Shown here: piece by piece, positions 15,319-24,198 of the stretch
How positions within the stretch are numbered: the stretch's first letter is position 1
Layout of the letters: each line of letters opens with the position of its first letter
NCBI RefSeq assembly: GCF_035917575.1
Contig: NZ_CP109090.1
Location: forward strand, 4,154,001-4,218,000
DNA: 64,000 nt
Direction: 5' to 3'
Origin: Streptomyces sp. NBC_01788
GTDB taxonomy: Bacteria; Actinomycetota; Actinomycetes; Streptomycetales; Streptomycetaceae
Notes under the pieces: model-generated
The model's input: only the letters and a program-made list of their open reading frames with translations
Databases searched by the model: none
What the model was told of the DNA's origin: nothing
Program-made: the position numbers and the translations under genes

Positions 15319-15972
15319 ATGGCCGGCGGCATCCCGCGGGCCCAGCCGCCCCCCGAAGGACTGTCACCCGACGACCCGCTCCCCGACGAACTCCCCCGCC
15401 GCGTGCTCTGGCGCCTGCGGCGCAACCCGATGCGCCGGCCCAGCGACCTGGCCCAGGCGTGGATCGGCCTCGGCATCCTGCTGGCCGTGCTGGCCGGCAC
15501 GCCCGTGGCCCTGCACTTCGTCGGCGACACCGCCCTGCGCCACTACGAGCGGGCGGCCGAGCACCAGGAGAGGACGCGGTGGCAGACCACCGCGGTCCTT
15601 CTGCACGACGCTCCCCGCCATCCCGAGCCGGGGTCCGAGGAGGCGAAGGAGACCCGCTACCCGGTGCCGGTGCGTTTCACCGACCCGGGCGGGCTCGCCC
15701 GCACCGCGAGGACCCACGTCGAGCCCGGACTGCCGGCGGGAAGCCCCGTCGACGTGTGGGCCGACACCGACGGACGGATCACCGAGCCGCCCCTGAGCGC
15801 CGCCCAGGTGCGCAGCCACAGCAAGGGCTGGGCGATCCTCGCCGCCCTGGCCGTCCCGGTCACCGGCGCCGCGGTGTACGGCGCCGCCGGGCTGCTGCTC
15901 CGCCGCCGCAACCTGGCCGCCTGGGACAGCGCCTGGGCCCGCACCGCACCCGGCTGGACGCCGTCCCCGTGA
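15319..15972 (+). CDS. Rv1733c-family two-helix membrane protein
   Basis: A protein of 217 residues starting at ATG 15319 behind GAAGGAGG. The layout is a cytoplasmic Pro/Arg-rich N-terminus, a first helix (about residues 48-68, WIGLGILLAVLAGTPVAL), an exported domain of about 110 residues, a second helix (about 170-192) and a short C-terminus. This topology and the NPMRRPSDLAQAW block resemble mycobacterial Rv1733c, a dormancy-regulon protein of unknown biochemistry. It follows the MreB-like gene by 58 bases. Confidence 0.68.
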   Translation: MAGGIPRAQPPPEGLSPDDPLPDELPRRVLWRLRRNPMRRPSDLAQAWIGLGILLAVLAGTPVALHFVGDTALRHYERAAEHQERTRWQTTAVLLHDAPRHPEPGSEEAKETRYPVPVRFTDPGGLARTARTHVEPGLPAGSPVDVWADTDGRITEPPLSAAQVRSHSKGWAILAALAVPVTGAAVYGAAGLLLRRRNLAAWDSAWARTAPGWTPSP

Positions 15973-16343
15973 TCTCCGGGGGTGCCGCACCCCGGCCCGG
16001 TCGATCTTGATGATGCTCTGTCAGCTCACCGGCATGGAAGCGCCCCCGAACACTGCCGGAAACCGGCAATGTGCGAGGTGGGGCCGGTCGGGCATCATGC
16101 CGTGAGGGGAGCACCGCGGACGGTTCCGGTGCCGGGCATCGGCAGATGTCCGTTGCCGGAGCCGGCAGGGGGGAAGTACCGCCGCCCGGTGCGTCGCAGG
16201 GGGAAGAGGGGGCTGACGATTCCGCGGCGCACCCGTCTCCCGCCGTCTCCCGGCGCCCGAGCCGCCGGGACACCGCGGGGGGCCGCACCCGGCCACCCGG
16301 TCTCTCCCTTACTCACCGTTCCTTACTGTCAAGGACGTATGCC
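15973..16343. promoter_or_regulatory. regulatory region upstream of flotillin gene with two TGCCGG/CCGGCA palindromes
   Basis: No gene is seen in these 371 bases. A GC hairpin at about 15976-15995 may end the preceding transcript. TGCCGG-AAA-CCGGCA (16054-16068) and TGCCGG-AG-CCGGCA (16154-16167) are near-identical palindromes whose first bases are exactly 100 bp apart. They could be paired operators for the flotillin gene, or simple GC hairpins. Confidence 0.45.
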
Positions 16344-18428
16344 ATGGATGTCATCGGCGCACTCGTCGCGGGCTGCCTGCTCGTCGTTCTCCTGCTGCTG
16401 CTGTTCACCTTCTCCCGGCTGTTCCGCAAGGTGGAGCAGGGCAAGGCCCTGATCGTCTCCAAGATGCGCAAGGTCGACGTGACCTTCACCGGCCAGGTCG
16501 TCCTGCCGGTGCTGCACAAGGCCGAGGTCATGGACATCTCGGTGAAGGCCATCGAGATCACGCGCACCGGCCGCGAGGGGCTCATCTGCCGGGACAACAT
16601 CCGCGCCGACATCCGCATCACGTTCTTCGTACGGGTCAACAAGACCGCCGAGGACGTCGTCCGGGTCGCCCAGGCCGTCGGCACCGCCCGCGCCAGCGAC
16701 CGGGACACGTTGCAGGAGCTGTTCCACGCCAAGTTCTCCGAGGCGCTGAAGACCGTCGGCAAGCAGATGGACTTCACGGACCTCTACACCAAGCGTGAGG
16801 AACTGCGGTTCCAGATCATCGAGGTCATCGGTGTCGACCTGAACGGCTACCACCTCGAGGACGCGGCGATCGACTATCTGGAGCAGACGCCGCTGACCCA
16901 GCTCGACCCCGGCAACGTCCTCGACGCCCAGGGCATCCGGAAGATCACCGAGCTGACAGCCGTGGAGCACGTGCGCACCAACGAGGCACAGCGCACCGAG
17001 CAGAAGGAGATCACCCGGCAGAACGTCGACGCGCGCGAGGCCATCCTGGAGCTGGAGCGCCGCCAGGCGGACGCCGAGATCAAGCAGAGGCGGGAGATCG
17101 ATACCTCCCGCGCCCGCGAGGAGGCCGAGACCGCCCGCGTGGTGGAGGAGGAGCGGCTGCGCGCGCAGAGCGCCTTCCTGCGCACCGAGGAGGAGCTCGG
17201 CGTCCAGCGCGAGAACCAGGCCCGTGAGGTCGCGGTCGCCGCGAAGAACCGCGAGCGGGTCATCGCCATCGAGAACGAGCGCATCGAGAAGGACCGCCTC
17301 CTCGAGGTCATCGCCCGGGAGCGGGAGACCCAGCTCACCCGGATCTCCGCCGACAAGGAGGTCGAGGCGGAGAAGCGGGAGATCGCCGAGGTCGTCCGCG
17401 AGCGGGTCGCGGTGGACCGCACGGTCGCCGAGCAGGAGGAGTCCATCAAGAAGCTGCGCGCCGTGGAGGAGGCGGAGCGCGAGCGCCAGGCCGTGATCAT
17501 CGCCGCCGAGGCGGAGGCGCAGGAGAAGCTGGTCAAGGACATCAAGGCCGCCGAGGCCGCCGAGCAGGCCGCCACCCACCGCGCCGCCGAGGAACTCACC
17601 CTGGCCGAGGCCCGGTTGAAGACCGCCGACCTCGACGCCCGCGCCAAGCTGCGCCTGGCGGAGGCCGTCCAGGCCGAGGCCGCCGCGGAGGGCCTGGCCG
17701 CCGTCCGGGTCCGTGAGCAGGAGGCCGAGGTCATCGAGAAGGCCGGCCGCGCCGAGGCCGAGGCGTTGCAGGCCAAGGCACTGGCCGAGGCCCGGGGCAC
17801 CGAGGCCCGGCTGCGCGCGGAGGCCGAGGGCGCCCAGGCCAAGGCGCTCGCGGAGGCCGCCGCGATCGGCGAGAAGCTGAAGGCCGAGGCGGCGGGCCTG
17901 ACCGAGAAGGCGGCGGCGATGGCCGCCCTGGACGAGGCCTCCCGCGAGCACGAGGAGTACCGGCTGCGGCTGCAGGCGGAGAAGGAGATCCGGCTGGCCG
18001 GCCTGGAGGCGCAGCGGCAGGTCGCCGAGGCGCAGGCCACGGTCCTCGCGACCGGTCTCGAGCACGCCGACATCGACATCGTCGGCGGCGAGTCGGTCTT
18101 CTTCGACCGCCTGATGAGCGCGATCTCGTTCGGCAAGGGCATCGACGGATTCGTGGAGAACTCCCGCACCGCGCAGGCCCTTGCCGCGCCCTGGCTGGAC
18201 GGCTCGTCGAACTTCACCGAGGACCTCGGCCGGATGCTCGGGCATCTGGGCTCGGCCGACGTCAAGAACCTGACGGTCTCCGCGCTGCTGATGAAGATGA
18301 TGCAGACGGGCGGCACGAACGCCGGTCAGCTCCAGCAACTCCTCGACCGCGCCGGTGAGCTGGGCCTCGCCGACACCCCGCTCGCCGCCCTCAACGGCAC
18401 CGCCCTCAACGGCACCACCCGGGCCTGA
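16344..18428 (+). CDS. flotillin-family SPFH/band 7 membrane scaffold
   Basis: A protein of 694 residues starting at ATG 16344 with AAGGA upstream. It has an N-terminal membrane helix (about residues 4-24), then the SPFH domain (about 28-220) with ITRTGREGLICRDNIRADI and DFTDLYTKREELRFQIIEVIG. A very long coiled coil follows (about 225-580), with (A/E)-rich heptads typical of flotillin domains such as AEAEALQAKALAEARGTEA. The C-terminal helical domain has no known motif. Flotillins build ordered inner-membrane platforms. No nfeD gene adjoins it; instead a giant AAA ATPase gene follows after 176 bases, which suggests that the two work together. Confidence 0.9.
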   Translation: MDVIGALVAGCLLVVLLLLLFTFSRLFRKVEQGKALIVSKMRKVDVTFTGQVVLPVLHKAEVMDISVKAIEITRTGREGLICRDNIRADIRITFFVRVNKTAEDVVRVAQAVGTARASDRDTLQELFHAKFSEALKTVGKQMDFTDLYTKREELRFQIIEVIGVDLNGYHLEDAAIDYLEQTPLTQLDPGNVLDAQGIRKITELTAVEHVRTNEAQRTEQKEITRQNVDAREAILELERRQADAEIKQRREIDTSRAREEAETARVVEEERLRAQSAFLRTEEELGVQRENQAREVAVAAKNRERVIAIENERIEKDRLLEVIARERETQLTRISADKEVEAEKREIAEVVRERVAVDRTVAEQEESIKKLRAVEEAERERQAVIIAAEAEAQEKLVKDIKAAEAAEQAATHRAAEELTLAEARLKTADLDARAKLRLAEAVQAEAAAEGLAAVRVREQEAEVIEKAGRAEAEALQAKALAEARGTEARLRAEAEGAQAKALAEAAAIGEKLKAEAAGLTEKAAAMAALDEASREHEEYRLRLQAEKEIRLAGLEAQRQVAEAQATVLATGLEHADIDIVGGESVFFDRLMSAISFGKGIDGFVENSRTAQALAAPWLDGSSNFTEDLGRMLGHLGSADVKNLTVSALLMKMMQTGGTNAGQLQQLLDRAGELGLADTPLAALNGTALNGTTRA

Positions 18429-18430
18429 CG

Positions 18431-18491
18431 ACCCGCGGGAGGGCCCCGAGCCGCCGCCTTCAAGGGGCGGTCGGGGGCCCGCCCCCCGCGG
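18431..18491. terminator. imperfect GC hairpin between flotillin and ATPase genes
   Basis: CCGCGGGAGGGCCCC just after the flotillin stop pairs imperfectly with GGGGCCCGCCCCCCGCGG at about 18473-18490. It may reduce read-through from flotillin into the ATPase gene, lowering the amount of ATPase without separating the two genes. The structure is inferred by eye only. Confidence 0.35.
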
Positions 18492-18604
18492 ATCACGCCG
18501 CGAACGCGGGGCCGGGAACCCGGCCCCGCCGACGGGGGCCGGCCTGATCCGCCGGACAGGCCTGCCCCCGGGCCCGCACCTCTTCGTGAAGGGACGCACC
18601 ACCC

Positions 18605-21600
18605 ATGGCCACCGCCCTGGAGACGGGTTCGTACGACTCCGTGGACACCGGAACGTACGAGGTGCTGCGCGACCGGCTGACCGCGCAGGCCGCCGAGCTC
18701 GCCCGCGGGGCCGAGCGACTCAACGCCCGACGGGCCGAGGAGTTCGGTGCCACGCGCCTGGACCTCACCGGCACCGGCCGGCTGCGCACCGAGCACCCCA
18801 GCGTGCCCCGCGACGTCGTGGCCGTCGGCGACCGCCTGCTGTTCGGATACAACGGCCACCTGCCCGAACCCCGGGTCGGCGACGTCCTCGCACTGCACGA
18901 CCGGGAGCTGAACCGGCTCCCCGAGGACGCGGTGCCCGGACTCCTCGACGACCCCGCCTTCGTGCGGGAGTTCGAGGCCCTGCACCGTTACTACCGGCAG
19001 GCCCGGCTGCTGAGCCTGCGCCGCGTCGAGGACCGCCTCCTCGCCGTCTTCCGGACCGGTGAGAAGGCCGGCGACATCCGGGTGCTGCGCTGGACACTCA
19101 CCGCCGACGGCCGGGCGGCGTTCCTGGACGGGCGCGGCGAACGCGACCACGTCCCGCCGCCTTCCCACGACTTCGAGTGGACCGCGACCGGCCGTGAGGA
19201 CCACGTCCTCGGCCGCCACCCGCACGTCTCCGTGCGCGGCGAGGTCTTCGTCTCCACCGTCGGCGGCCGCCTCACCGTCAAGACGGAGGACGACACCGAG
19301 ACCGGCGAGGGCATCCACAGCGAACCGGTCGAGGAGCCGCTGCAGGCCCTCGCCGACGCGGATATCGCGTACGCGAGCGTGGGCCCGCTGATCCTGCTGC
19401 GGATCCGCCCCTACAAGGAGCAGGCCCACCGCCACCTCGTCTTCCACACCCTCACCAGGACCGTGGTCCGCATCGACGGCGTCGGGCAGGCCTGCCGCCG
19501 CCTGCCCGACGACCAGGGCATCGTCTTCCCCGGCGGCTACTGCCTGGCCACCGGCGCCCACAAGACCTACGAACTCGGCAGCTCGGGCCTGGAGTTCGAG
19601 CGCGAGGTGCGTTCGCCCTACGGCGAGGACGTGCTGTACGCCTTCCACGCGCCCGCCGAGGGACGCAGCCTGCTGCTGTCGTACAACACCATCCGCGAGG
19701 AGGTCGCCACCCCGCTGTCCTGCCACGGCTGGGCGCTGTTCGACGACGGCACGCTGATGGCGCTGCGCACGGACCCCTCGGCCGGACCCGACGAGCCGGG
19801 CCGTGTGCACCCCCTCCAGTTGTGGAGCTCCCCCTACGTCTCCGACACCCACGCCGGCGCCACGGGCACCGGACCCCTCGGGCGGATCGGCAACGCCGAC
19901 CTCGTACGCGGCATCTCCGACTGCCTGTCCATCGGCCGCGCCGTCGCCGAGACCACGCCGACCGTCGAGGTGTACGAGGCGCTGGCCGCCGCCTGCGTCC
20001 GCGCCCTCGACACCCACCACTGGCTGGACGAGGAGGAACTGGGCGACCTGCGCACCCCGCTGGACGCCGTACGGGCCACCGCCGAGCAGGTGCTGGAGGA
20101 GTTCCGTACCGTACAGACGCTGACCCGGCAGGCCGCGGACGCGCTCGAAGCGGCCGCGGGCAGGCTCGCCGCGGTGGTGCGCCGGCTGCGTGGCGAGGCA
20201 CCGCGCGGCGCCGCCGCGTGGGTCGGCGGCCTCAGCGAACTGCGGCAGGCCCAGGGCCACTTGCTGACCCTGAAGGAGATGCGGTACGCGGACGCCGCCC
20301 GTATCGACGAGCTCGCCGCCGAGGCGGAGGCCGACCTCACCACGTTCGGGCAGCGGGCGGTCGCCTTCCTGGCCCGCGAGGACGCCTTCGCCGACCACCA
20401 CGAGGAGGTCGAACGCCTCGCCGCCGACGCCGAGTCGATCGGCAGCGTCGCCGAGGCGGCACCGGTCGCCGGCCGGCTCGACGACCTCGCCGGCACGCTG
20501 CGCACGGTCACCGAGGTCGTCGCCGGCCTCGACATCGGCGACGCCACCGTGCGCACCTCCGTCCTGGAACGCATCGCCGAGGTGCTCGGCGGCGTCAACC
20601 GCGCCCGCGCCCTGCTCGACGCCCGCCGCCGTGAACTGCGCGACCAGGAGGGACGCGCCGAGTTCGCGGCCGAGTTCGCGCTGCTCGGCCAGGCCGTCAC
20701 CGGCGCGCTCGCGGCCGCGGACGATCCGGACGCCTGCGACGAGCAACTCGCCTCCCTGATGGTGCGACTGGAGAACCTGGAGTCCCGCTTCGCGGAGTTC
20801 GACGACTTCCTCGGCGAACTGGCCGACCGGCGCACCGAGATCTACGAGGCCTTCTCCGGCCGCAAGCAGGGCCTCCTGGACGCCCGCGCCCGCCGCGCCG
20901 AACAACTCGCCGCCTCCGCCGGGCGGGTGCTGGAGACGATCGCCCGGCGCGCGGCCACCCTCGCCGACACCGACGCCGTCAGCACCTTCTTCGCCTCCGA
21001 CCCACTGGTCGCCAAGGCCCGCCGCACGGCCGAGGAACTCCGCGAACTCGGCGACCCCGTACGGGCCGAGGAACTGGACGGCCGGCTGAAGTCCGCCCGC
21101 CAGGAGGCGGCCCGCGCGCTGCGCGACCGCACCGACCTGTACGCCGACGGCGGCCGCACCATCCGCCTGGGCACCCACCGCTTCGCCGTCACCAACCGGC
21201 CGCTCGACCTCACCCTGGTCCCGCAGGGCGACGGCCTCGCCTTCGCCCTGTCCGGCACCGACTACCGCGCTCCCGTCACCGACCCGGCCTTCGCGGACAC
21301 CCGCCCGTACTGGGACCGGCGGCTGCCGTCCGAGTCGCCCGAGGTCTACCGCGCCGAGCACCTCGCCGCCCGCCTGCTGCGCCGACACGGCGCGGCCGCG
21401 CCGGCCCAGGCCGACCTGCCGGCCCTGGTGCGCGGGGCCGCGGAGGAGGCGTACGACGAGGGCTACGAGCGCGGCGTCCACGACCACGACGCGACGGCGA
21501 TCCTCACCGCCCTGCTCTCCCTCTACGAGCAGGCCGGGCCCCTGCGCCACGAACCCGCCGCGCGCGCCGCCGCCCAGCTGTTCTGGGCACACGGCACCAC

Positions 21601-23524
21601 CCCCGGGGCCCGCACGGCCTGGACCCGCCGCGCCGCCTCCCTGGCCCGCGCCCGCGACACCTTCGGCCCGTCCCCCGCCATCCCCGAACTCATCACGGAA
21701 CTCGCGACGTCCCTGGAAACCTGGCCGTCGACCGATGGCGGCCGCGGGGCGGCTCCTCTGGGCGCGGGCGACCTCGCGCCCGCTGCCGCGGCGTACCTCT
21801 TCGAGGAGCTGACGAGCGGGACCGACGGGTTCGTCATCAGCGCCGCCACCCGCACTCTGCTCGACAAGTTCCGCCACACCGTGGGCAGTTCCGCCTACGA
21901 CGAGGACCTGGCCGCGCTCGACGACCTCGCCGCGCGCCGCCAGCTCGCCGGGGCGTGGCTGTCGGCGTACGTCACCTCCACCGGTACGGAGATCACCGCC
22001 GGGGACCTGGCCGAGGCGGTCGCCGCCGAGCTGTGCCCGGACCTGCCCCGCTACGAGTCCGAAGTCTCCCCGGTGACCACGGTCGAGGGCCTGCTCGGCA
22101 CCCACCCGCGCATCGAGAACCGCACGCTCACCCTGCGGATCGACGAGTTCCTGGCCCGTACCGAACGCTTCGAGACGCGGGAGGCCCCCGCCTTCCGCGC
22201 CTACCAGCGCCGCCGCACCGCCCTCGTCGACGCCGAACGCGCCCGGCTGCGCCTGGACGACCACCGCCCGCGCTCCATGGCGGCGTTCGTCCGCAACCGC
22301 CTCATCGACGAGGTCTACCTGCCCCTCATCGGTGACAGCCTCGCCCGCCAGCTCGGGACCGCGGGCGAGAGCAAGCGCACCGACACCGGCGGCCTGCTGC
22401 TGCTCGTCTCGCCGCCCGGCTACGGCAAGACCACGCTGATGGAGTACGTCGCCGACCGCCTGGGCCTGATGCTCGTCAAGATCAGCGGACCCGCGCTCGG
22501 CCACGCCGTCACCTCGCTCGACCCGGCCGAGGCCCCGAACGCCACCGCCCGCCAGGAGATCGAGAAGATCAACTTCGCGCTGGCGGCGGGCAACAACACC
22601 CTGCTGCTCCTGGACGACATCCAGCACACCTCGCCGGAACTGCTCCAGAAGTTCATCCCGCTGTGCGACGCCACCCGCCGGGTCGAGGGCGTGTGGAACG
22701 GCGAGGCGCGCACCTACGACCTGCGCGGCAAGCGGTTCGCCGTCTGCATGACCGGCAACCCCTACACCGAGTCCGGCGAGCGCTTCCGCGTCCCCGACAT
22801 GCTCGCCAACCGCGCCGACGTCTGGAACCTCGGCGACGTCCTCACCGGCAAGGAGGACGTCTTCGCGGTCAGCTTCCTGGAGAACGCGCTCACCGCGAAC
22901 GCGGTGCTGGCCCCGCTGGCCGGCCGCGACCGCCGCGACCTCGACCTGTTCCTCCGCCTCGCGGGCAACGACCCCGCGGCCCGCGCGGACCGGCTCGGGC
23001 ACCCCTACGCGCCCGCCGAGGTCGAGCAGATCGTGTCCGTGCTGCGCCATCTGCTCAGCGCGCGCGAGACGGTCCTCGCGGTCAATGCCGCCTACATCGC
23101 CTCCGCCGCCCAGTCCGACGAGACACGCACCGAGCCGCCGTTCCGCCTCCAGGGCTCCTACCGCACCATGAACAAGATCGCCCAGCGGCTGCGGCCCGTC
23201 ATGAACGACACCGAACTGTCCGCCGTCCTCGACGACCACTTCACCGCCGAGGCACAGACCCTCACCACGGGAGCCGAGGCCAACCTGCTCAAACTGGCCG
23301 AGCTGCGCGGCGCCCTGACCCCGCTGCAGGCGACTCGCTGGGCCGAGTTGAAGTCGGCCCACATCCGCGCGCAGGCCCTCGGCGGCCCGGCCGGGGATCC
23401 CCTCACGCGCGCGACCGCCGCCCTTGCCCTGCTGGCCGACCGGATGGGCGCCATCGAGGCCGCTCTCACGGGCCGCACCGCCTCCCGGGCCCGGCACGCG
23501 GCCGAGCCCGGAACGGAGGAGTGA
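18605..23524 (+). CDS. giant AAA ATPase, flotillin-associated ('DNA repair ATPase' type)
   Basis: A protein of 1,639 residues. Residues about 1-480 have a repetitive beta-strand character, like a propeller, with motifs such as VLRWTLTADGRAAFLDGRGE. About 490-860 are predicted helical and coiled-coil. About 1250-1480 form a AAA domain of MoxR-like style with Walker A SPPGYGKTTL (G1272-T1277) and Walker B LLLLDDIQH (D1337-D1338). GNPYTESGERFRVPDMLANR looks like sensor/Arg-finger territory. Such proteins are often labelled DNA repair ATPase, but I see no nuclease, helicase or DNA-binding motif. Adjacency to flotillin suggests a membrane-linked remodelling role. The start is ATG 18605. Its stop is followed within six bases by a small membrane-peptide gene. 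Confidence 0.85.
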   Translation: MATALETGSYDSVDTGTYEVLRDRLTAQAAELARGAERLNARRAEEFGATRLDLTGTGRLRTEHPSVPRDVVAVGDRLLFGYNGHLPEPRVGDVLALHDRELNRLPEDAVPGLLDDPAFVREFEALHRYYRQARLLSLRRVEDRLLAVFRTGEKAGDIRVLRWTLTADGRAAFLDGRGERDHVPPPSHDFEWTATGREDHVLGRHPHVSVRGEVFVSTVGGRLTVKTEDDTETGEGIHSEPVEEPLQALADADIAYASVGPLILLRIRPYKEQAHRHLVFHTLTRTVVRIDGVGQACRRLPDDQGIVFPGGYCLATGAHKTYELGSSGLEFEREVRSPYGEDVLYAFHAPAEGRSLLLSYNTIREEVATPLSCHGWALFDDGTLMALRTDPSAGPDEPGRVHPLQLWSSPYVSDTHAGATGTGPLGRIGNADLVRGISDCLSIGRAVAETTPTVEVYEALAAACVRALDTHHWLDEEELGDLRTPLDAVRATAEQVLEEFRTVQTLTRQAADALEAAAGRLAAVVRRLRGEAPRGAAAWVGGLSELRQAQGHLLTLKEMRYADAARIDELAAEAEADLTTFGQRAVAFLAREDAFADHHEEVERLAADAESIGSVAEAAPVAGRLDDLAGTLRTVTEVVAGLDIGDATVRTSVLERIAEVLGGVNRARALLDARRRELRDQEGRAEFAAEFALLGQAVTGALAAADDPDACDEQLASLMVRLENLESRFAEFDDFLGELADRRTEIYEAFSGRKQGLLDARARRAEQLAASAGRVLETIARRAATLADTDAVSTFFASDPLVAKARRTAEELRELGDPVRAEELDGRLKSARQEAARALRDRTDLYADGGRTIRLGTHRFAVTNRPLDLTLVPQGDGLAFALSGTDYRAPVTDPAFADTRPYWDRRLPSESPEVYRAEHLAARLLRRHGAAAPAQADLPALVRGAAEEAYDEGYERGVHDHDATAILTALLSLYEQAGPLRHEPAARAAAQLFWAHGTTPGARTAWTRRAASLARARDTFGPSPAIPELITELATSLETWPSTDGGRGAAPLGAGDLAPAAAAYLFEELTSGTDGFVISAATRTLLDKFRHTVGSSAYDEDLAALDDLAARRQLAGAWLSAYVTSTGTEITAGDLAEAVAAELCPDLPRYESEVSPVTTVEGLLGTHPRIENRTLTLRIDEFLARTERFETREAPAFRAYQRRRTALVDAERARLRLDDHRPRSMAAFVRNRLIDEVYLPLIGDSLARQLGTAGESKRTDTGGLLLLVSPPGYGKTTLMEYVADRLGLMLVKISGPALGHAVTSLDPAEAPNATARQEIEKINFALAAGNNTLLLLDDIQHTSPELLQKFIPLCDATRRVEGVWNGEARTYDLRGKRFAVCMTGNPYTESGERFRVPDMLANRADVWNLGDVLTGKEDVFAVSFLENALTANAVLAPLAGRDRRDLDLFLRLAGNDPAARADRLGHPYAPAEVEQIVSVLRHLLSARETVLAVNAAYIASAAQSDETRTEPPFRLQGSYRTMNKIAQRLRPVMNDTELSAVLDDHFTAEAQTLTTGAEANLLKLAELRGALTPLQATRWAELKSAHIRAQALGGPAGDPLTRATAALALLADRMGAIEAALTGRTASRARHAAEPGTEE

Positions 23525-23529
23525 CGACG

Positions 23530-23697
23530 ATGGAGACGATGACGGCGGTCACCGCGGCGATGGCGGTGATGACGCCCTTCCTGGTCCCGCTCAGCACCGC
23601 CACGCTGATCGTGGCGGCCAGTACGACCGTCCTGGTGCGCCGCGACCGCCGCCGTGCCCACGCCTACCGCTGCACGTCGCCGGCCGAGGAGGACTGA
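23530..23697 (+). CDS. 55-residue single-pass membrane peptide
   Basis: The ATG at 23530 follows a GGAGG site that overlaps the end of the ATPase gene; a GTG at 23521 overlapping that stop is the alternative. The peptide has 55 residues. Residues about 5-35 form one membrane helix (VMTPFLVPLSTATLIVAAS). A basic stop-transfer segment VRRDRRRAHAYRC and an acidic end PAEED follow. Tight coupling to the ATPase suggests a membrane partner or tether for it. No known family is recognised. Confidence 0.62.
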   Translation: METMTAVTAAMAVMTPFLVPLSTATLIVAASTTVLVRRDRRRAHAYRCTSPAEED

Positions 23698-23722: not shown

Positions 23723-23989
23723 TCAGTTCCGCGAGTTGCCGAACAGGAGGCGGTAGCCGATGAGCAGCACGAGCGAGCCGCCGATGGCCGCGCCCCAGGT
23801 GTAGAGATCGAAGAAGTTGTTCTCCACGGAGCGGCCCAGGAACTTGGCGGAGAGCCACCCGCCCACGAACGCGCCCGCTACGCCGATGAGTGTCGTACCG
23901 ATCAGTCCGCCCGGGTCCCGCCCCGGCAGCAGGATCTTGGCGATGGCCCCGGCCAGCAGTCCGAGAATGATCCAGCCGATGATGCTCAC
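23723..23989 (-). CDS. GlsB/YeaQ/YmgE-family stress membrane protein
   Basis: A protein of 88 residues. GTG 23989 is chosen with GAAGAGG upstream. There are three hydrophobic helices with the family pattern IIGWIILGLLAGAIAKIL, a Gly-rich LIGVAGAFVGGWLS, and a final helix IGGSLVLLIGYRLLF. Proteins of this family (transglycosylase-associated in name only) are small general-stress membrane proteins. It is convergent with the ATPase-peptide genes and divergent from the TerD gene. Confidence 0.86.
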   Translation of the reverse strand: MSIIGWIILGLLAGAIAKILLPGRDPGGLIGTTLIGVAGAFVGGWLSAKFLGRSVENNFFDLYTWGAAIGGSLVLLIGYRLLFGNSRN

Positions 23990-24198
23990 GTCGCCTCTTC
24001 TCCAGGAGTATGGGTTGCCTGATCGCGTGGTTCCGGATGCCCGCAATGGCCAGGACGCGAGTTACCGCGCCGGTGGTTGCCCGGCCGGTCCGCATCCAGC
24101 ACATATTTTCATTATTGCGCAACCCTGGAACTGCCGGGGAGGGCAGGCGCGTTGAGTCCCGTGAACACGGGGGACCGGAAAAGCTGCGGAGGAGTTCG

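Follow-up and report, generated by a model that had tools for sequence, protein, structure and literature searches.

A flotillin-linked MoxR-like AAA+ ATPase of Streptomyces: a candidate envelope remodeller with stepwise loss of NfeD and an upstream palindrome pair

What does a giant ATPase with a "DNA repair" label do beside a flotillin gene? The question is raised by a stretch of 64,000 nucleotides from Streptomyces sp. NBC_01788 (NZ_CP109090.1, positions 4,154,001 to 4,218,000; hereafter the window), whose genome is a single contig of 8.27 Mb. Genes for a flotillin (694 amino acids (aa), 16344-18428), the ATPase (1639 aa, 18605-23524) and a single-span membrane peptide (55 aa, 23530-23697) follow each other on the forward strand. 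A preliminary description read them as scaffold, motor and tether. All three genes are real at these positions, and the ATG of the peptide does open six bases after the ATPase stop. We consider it rather probable that the ATPase is a MoxR-like remodeller of envelope complexes recruited by the flotillin, and the evidence supports a membrane-docked remodelling motor, not DNA repair. The pair itself is not a new system, as its operon already appears in excerpts of Ravi et al. 2024 (PMC11237479). What we add is that NfeD was lost step by step, that the AAA+ module has a predicted MoxR-type fold, and that the upstream DNA holds an operator-like pair with a genomic link to a PucR-family gene.

Conservation of the flotillin-ATPase pair

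Our comparison set of 152 loci consists of the window, 11 of the 12 "plasmid" records that encode the ATPase (a second Proteus record was left out), 60 stretches from whole genomes (59 of the 64 other Streptomyces copies and one genome of another class) and 80 named contigs. The last are the best 80 of 549 relatives, and the sample therefore favours actinobacteria. In 150 loci the gene immediately upstream of the ATPase, and co-oriented with it, encodes a flotillin; in the other two (L179 and L192) the corresponding stretch falls beyond the contig end. With identical ATPases removed, the neighbourhood that the preliminary description had seen in the window is kept in every one of the 143 scorable loci among 145 unique ones, with 9 to 625 bases between the two matches (median 156). 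Across four phyla, no locus checked shows the AAA+ partner separated from its flotillin, which bears on how bacterial flotillins are powered.

The window flotillin has an SPFH/Band_7 domain (Pfam, E=1.1e-9, 39 bits against a cut-off of 23.6), an N-terminal hydrophobic segment read off the sequence and a long tail. In two plasmid relatives the gene run with the ATPase also includes PspA and YjfI or Tir, which favours work at the membrane over DNA repair.

Of 121 sampled Streptomyces genomes, 63 carry the ATPase domain DUF3686, 62 of them over the cut-off. Sampling across the phylum gave 8 genomes of 296 (2 genera of 198), and none of 14 control genomes has it. Two genomes, G067 and G095, hold two separate copies each. 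The "plasmid" records, some of them chromosome-sized, come from Streptomyces, Nonomuraea, Deinococcus, Pseudomonas, Proteus, Hymenobacter, Halomonas, Photobacterium and Vibrio. With a query taken from pQBR103, at least 7,782 matches were obtained among 8,000 scored candidates, including a Pseudomonas aeruginosa cluster of 1746 aa. The 56 pattern matches in viral contigs include no relative.

Fold and conserved residues of the ATPase

The Pfam domains of the ATPase are DUF3686 (residues 31-472), DUF7902 (593-677) and AAA (from 1265). The predicted model has an N-terminal beta-propeller (residues 49-410; 18749-19834, + strand), long helices in the middle and an AAA+ module (residues 1214-1570; 22244-23314, + strand), in agreement with the beta-rich N-terminus and coiled-coil middle described earlier. 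Among solved folds, the module is closest to the MoxR-type remodellers CbbQ and NorQ, as given by re-alignment of the candidates returned by Foldseek. Some source records already name the protein "MoxR-like ATPase".

The Walker motifs were also described correctly as intact, with Walker A at P1270-T1277 and Walker B at D1337-D1338. The alignment has 152 rows, one with a gap here, and the other 151 all keep K1275, T1276, D1337 and D1338. In each of them Walker B has Asp as its second residue, where Glu is usual. Candidates for sensor 1, the arginine finger and sensor 2 are N1385, R1403 and R1520. A beta-hairpin before sensor 1 and a helix-2 insert mark the AAA+ proteins of the MoxR/CbbQ/NorQ type. 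The model places two strands (1359-1364 and 1367-1372) between the Walker B and sensor 1 strands, forming such a hairpin, and its secondary structure, viewed without residue-by-residue comparison, has no clear helix-2 insert.

Between the helices and the AAA+ module lies a G-V-H-D-H-D-A motif (residues 957-963, window 21473-21493), in which H959, D960 and D962 are present in 152 of 152 rows and H961 in 123. This motif is possibly a metal site or a second active site. One locus (L054) has five in-frame stops inside the ATPase match range, perhaps a frameshift in that genome.

Stepwise loss of NfeD and the 55-aa peptide

Most loci encode a hydrophobic YqiJ/NfeD-type protein upstream of the flotillin. 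On a 202-position profile derived from 47 of these loci, we classed it as full (ending at 191-201), truncated (117-162, with the C-terminal domain gone) or absent. It is full in all 31 scorable unique loci outside Streptomyces. Within Streptomyces, 106 unique loci were scorable (7 were not), giving 52 full, 29 truncated and 25 absent; one of the absent class, L102, has an open reading frame (ORF) that looks like a remnant. On the tree (FastTree), the switch between full and not full takes 6 changes or more, and that between absent and present 9 or more.

No NfeD gene adjoins the window flotillin, and a profile of actinobacterial NfeD finds a chance-level match only (E 0.77) in the whole genome. 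A different NfeD, adjoining another SPFH gene, lies 2.2 Mb away. When tried on one full NfeD of Streptomyces, the Pfam YqiJ models missed it as well, so a miss by these models alone is not proof of absence. Judged from the sequence comparison, the absence in the window is a derived loss. The preliminary remark that the flotillin lacks its usual NfeD partner therefore stands for window and genome, with the qualification that the relatives usually have NfeD and that only some Streptomyces are without it. Excerpts of Hinderhofer et al. 2009 mention 17 genomes with flotillin-type SPFH2 but without NfeD2.

The 217-aa product of an upstream ORF (15319-15972) was considered as a hidden NfeD and rejected, having no Pfam match at E<=1. 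This two-span protein resembles those of the Rv1733c type; a cluster of such genes occurs near the operon in 7 loci.

The 55-aa peptide has no Pfam match. Peptides of this kind, sharing a core like FLVPL...VLVRRDRRR, directly follow the ATPase in 8 loci of the 152, window included; six of the eight (the window and five others) were seeds of the profile used, and L124 and L130 are new finds. In 7 of the 8 the frame opens at most about 20 bases from the ATPase stop, and it overlaps the stop in four. Differences by codon position (398, 298 and 470) hint at purifying selection. Its presence requires at least 7 changes on the tree, and the peptide is a lineage-specific, optional extra, not a core tether. 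Scaffold and motor, as first proposed, are supported by the adjacency and the MoxR-type fold. The tether was the weakest part of that proposal; the usual membrane partner is NfeD/YqiJ, lost in the window lineage.

An operator-like pair and a PucR-family regulator

Two operator-like palindromes of the TGCCGG-N3-CCGGCA type, neither assigned a strand, lie upstream of the operon. Palindrome 1, TGCCGGAAACCGGCA (16054-16068), stands beside a putative promoter and may be bound by a protein; palindrome 2, TGCCGGGCATCGGCA (16130-16144), is 76 base pairs (bp) away. The putative promoter is suggested by a -10-like hexamer, CATCAT (16093-16098, + strand), at a conserved CANNAT position; all 57 alignment rows agree in its A and its final T. 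Sigma-70 and terminator scans found none.

The exact pair occurs once in the window genome. Upstream sequence of 450 bp is available for 145 loci; 67 of them have a pair spaced by 74-78 bp (39 at 76), and 68 do with a slightly wider range. The form TGCCG-N5-CGGCA has 147 sites in 65,685 bp of upstream stretches versus 48 in 2,844,689 bp elsewhere at the same loci, a figure that is descriptive only, since the motif was first noticed in those stretches. The genome-wide pair and reversed-control tests lie outside them: 37 of 121 Streptomyces genomes contain an exact pair, the reversed control is found in 2, and in 31 of the 37 a pair falls, by coordinates, at the ATPase locus.

Seven stray pairs were analysed, and all have a divergent gene of one family alongside. 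Two of these genes were scanned and have GGDEF_2 and PucR HTH_30 domains; the remaining five were recognised by sequence, the frame at L247 departing near its end. Pairs outside the seven are those of G047, G050 and G076, left out, and of L251, a short contig, not settled. At L245, a truncated NfeD comes next after the stray pair, with no flotillin. Near the operon itself, 63 of 112 unique Streptomyces loci have the regulator gene in divergent orientation no more than 800 bp away, and 61 of these also have the exact site; in the others the regulator is elsewhere in the stretch (16), absent (28) or unscorable (5). Unique loci outside Streptomyces have the site in 0 of 31 and the regulator in 0 of 30.

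No paper on PucR, flotillin and SPFH together, nor on DUF3686, was found in the open-access literature searched. In the sense of that search, the operator pair and its PucR-family link are new. Operator pair and regulator offer a way to learn under which conditions the system is produced. OsdR was rejected as the regulator, its consensus AGGGCCGATCGGCCCT, as quoted in an excerpt of PMC5069765, not matching.

Site 1 was also considered as an RNA element and rejected: from 57 rows RNAalifold predicted 12 pairs, of which 2 have any two-sided change, and the pairs of site 1 hardly vary, which argues for a DNA operator. Palindrome 2 lies inside a longer hairpin in many of the 13 loci folded, and the consensus fold did not pick the hairpin of this region. 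In the window, 16130-16189 could fold into a long, short-looped hairpin whose arms differ together between some relatives. Rfam gave two minus-strand matches, both under the gathering scores.

The PucR-family homologue of the window genome is found at L258 (G000:7723000-7737500), where its neighbours are presumably a 484-aa GAPDH-like gene and a NiFe-hydrogenase-like gene. A stray operator pair of another genome (L250) is also beside a GAPDH-like gene.

Comparison with known systems

The operon in the excerpts of Ravi et al. 2024 holds PspA, a CesT/Tir chaperone, YqiJ/NfeD (YqiJ/YuaF), flotillin and the AAA+ ATPase, and shorter forms without PspA are described there too. Both operons have an AAA+ ATPase fused to a beta-propeller and coiled coil; the flotillin is given there as a band-7 and coiled-coil membrane protein, and that of the window has Band_7 and an N-terminal hydrophobic stretch. 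The three-transmembrane YqiJ/YuaF (NfeD) protein is missing from the window, which makes its operon a derived variant. The longer form has a CesT/Tir-PspA dyad, whereas the one PspA gene over the cut-off here lies elsewhere in the genome; no search for CesT/Tir was made. Relative to the operon in those excerpts, the small membrane peptide and the PucR-linked operator pair are particular to the window.

According to excerpts of PMC10948618 and PMC13086221, the bacABCDEF operon of P. aeruginosa encodes BacA of the DUF2170/YjfI family, a PspA-like BacB and, taking both sources together, a short NfeD (BacC) and an SPFH protein (BacD). In these, bacE and bacF share the bac transcript, and their proteins rise together in a bacA mutant. 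The species encodes the same ATPase family (1746 aa), and bacE or bacF may be its gene. Sigma-54 control is proposed for bac in this material; PucR-type control is proposed for the window.

CbbQ and NorQ share with the window ATPase the AAA+ fold and a conserved nucleotide site. Their matched chains have about 230-270 residues, whereas the window ATPase is one chain of 1639 aa with propeller and helices. By the titles of its structures, NorQ works with the VWA domain of NorD; the window ATPase carries its own propeller and helices. The HflK/C cage with FtsH, covered partly in excerpts of PMC13086221, is likewise an SPFH scaffold with an AAA+ motor. FtsH is a protease, whereas no protease domain was found in the window ATPase (Pfam).

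Proposed mechanism and alternatives

We propose that flotillin assemblies on the cytoplasmic side of the cell membrane would recruit, by contact, a large AAA+ remodeller of the MoxR/CbbQ/NorQ kind, in which the built-in beta-propeller and long helices may do the job of an adaptor. Using ATP, the motor would assemble, release or reactivate envelope-associated complexes in membrane stress, with PspA-type polymers as one plausible substrate. NfeD/YqiJ would be dispensable in Streptomyces, where it was trimmed and lost several times. A PucR-family regulator may read the palindromic operator pair and set transcription, probably acting in trans in the window genome. It is possible, on the doubtful side, that Streptomyces turned a PspA-linked flotillin kit into an NfeD-independent remodeller, with a propeller-adaptor MoxR motor and PucR-switched looped operators, the scaffold-motor pair being its core. 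Lacking NfeD and PspA, the window form is a simple natural version to purify and delete.

Several points weigh against this proposal. Adjacency can reflect co-regulation without contact. For the N-terminal half, the TM-scores of the Foldseek matches are low, at 0.1-0.2 of the query in the top rows. PspA is outside the window operon, the one PspA gene over the cut-off being elsewhere in the genome. In excerpts of PMC13086221, single and multiple SPFH deletions in P. aeruginosa PA14 have no pronounced phenotype in the traits tested. As for the regulator, a single strict site occurs 10 times in the window genome versus 5 for the reversed control; the site is still present in 20 of the 28 unique Streptomyces loci without the regulator in the stretch, and is missing in 2 of the 63 with a divergent one. 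The only close regulator homologue in the window genome has 70% identity, lies 3.6 Mb away and has no such operator beside it.

That the ATPase works in DNA repair, as its label in Pfam text and record names says, is very improbable. Its P-loop has a weak similarity to RuvB, but the RuvB models reach 20.9 and 20.2 bits against cut-offs of 282 and 299.05, in the P-loop only, and RuvB_N 21.1 against 27. As noted in the preliminary description, no DNA-binding or nuclease motif is visible: no such family exceeds its curated cut-off in the ATPase, with Pfam and further family models. The MoxR-type fold and the constant linkage to a membrane scaffold speak against the label as well, and the name "DNA repair ATPase" on many listed records looks misleading. 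NorQ presumably serves nitric oxide reductase in assembly or activation, and our ATPase might similarly assemble or activate one membrane enzyme or transporter, the flotillin merely holding the client, with no general remodelling. The closeness to CbbQ and NorQ fits this, as do transporter-type neighbours (a presumably TrkA-like protein in 25 loci, NhaA, ArsB/NhaD). A fixed client nearby would be expected more often, however: among 144 actinobacterial loci clustered (ORFs of at least 80 aa, simple gene calling), the ATPase is found in 142, flotillin in 141, an NfeD-like protein in 81 and the regulator in 71, and the next cluster reaches only 25. We regard the single-client reading as unlikely.

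Finally, the 55-aa peptide might replace NfeD as the membrane tether of the motor. It is found in 0 of 83 unique loci with full NfeD and in 7 of 54 with truncated or absent NfeD (counts that include loci whose contig stops after the ATPase), and its frame opens tightly against the ATPase stop. Yet a truncated NfeD is still present in four of the eight peptide loci, 47 of the 54 loci without full NfeD also lack the peptide, and six independent pairs differing in the peptide show the same NfeD state. The association may therefore be shared ancestry, beyond which the six-pair comparison supports no compensation for NfeD loss. We consider replacement quite improbable.

Other observations

Known anti-phage systems (PADLOC-DB 2023) were rejected for the ATPase: the best match, IetA (E=0.0029), covers residues 1265-1293 only, with nothing significant beyond the P-loop.

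The gene of a 668-aa protein that looks TrkA-like is the one that recurs in 25 loci. NhaA is beside the S. globosus copy, ArsB/NhaD is near the NBC_00080 copy, and CBS proteins are near some copies. The TrkA-like, NhaA/NhaD-type antiporter and CBS neighbours hint at ion homeostasis. Downstream of the window operon and convergent with it, the minus strand (23723-24046) encodes a small membrane protein, presumably of the GlsB/YeaQ stress family.
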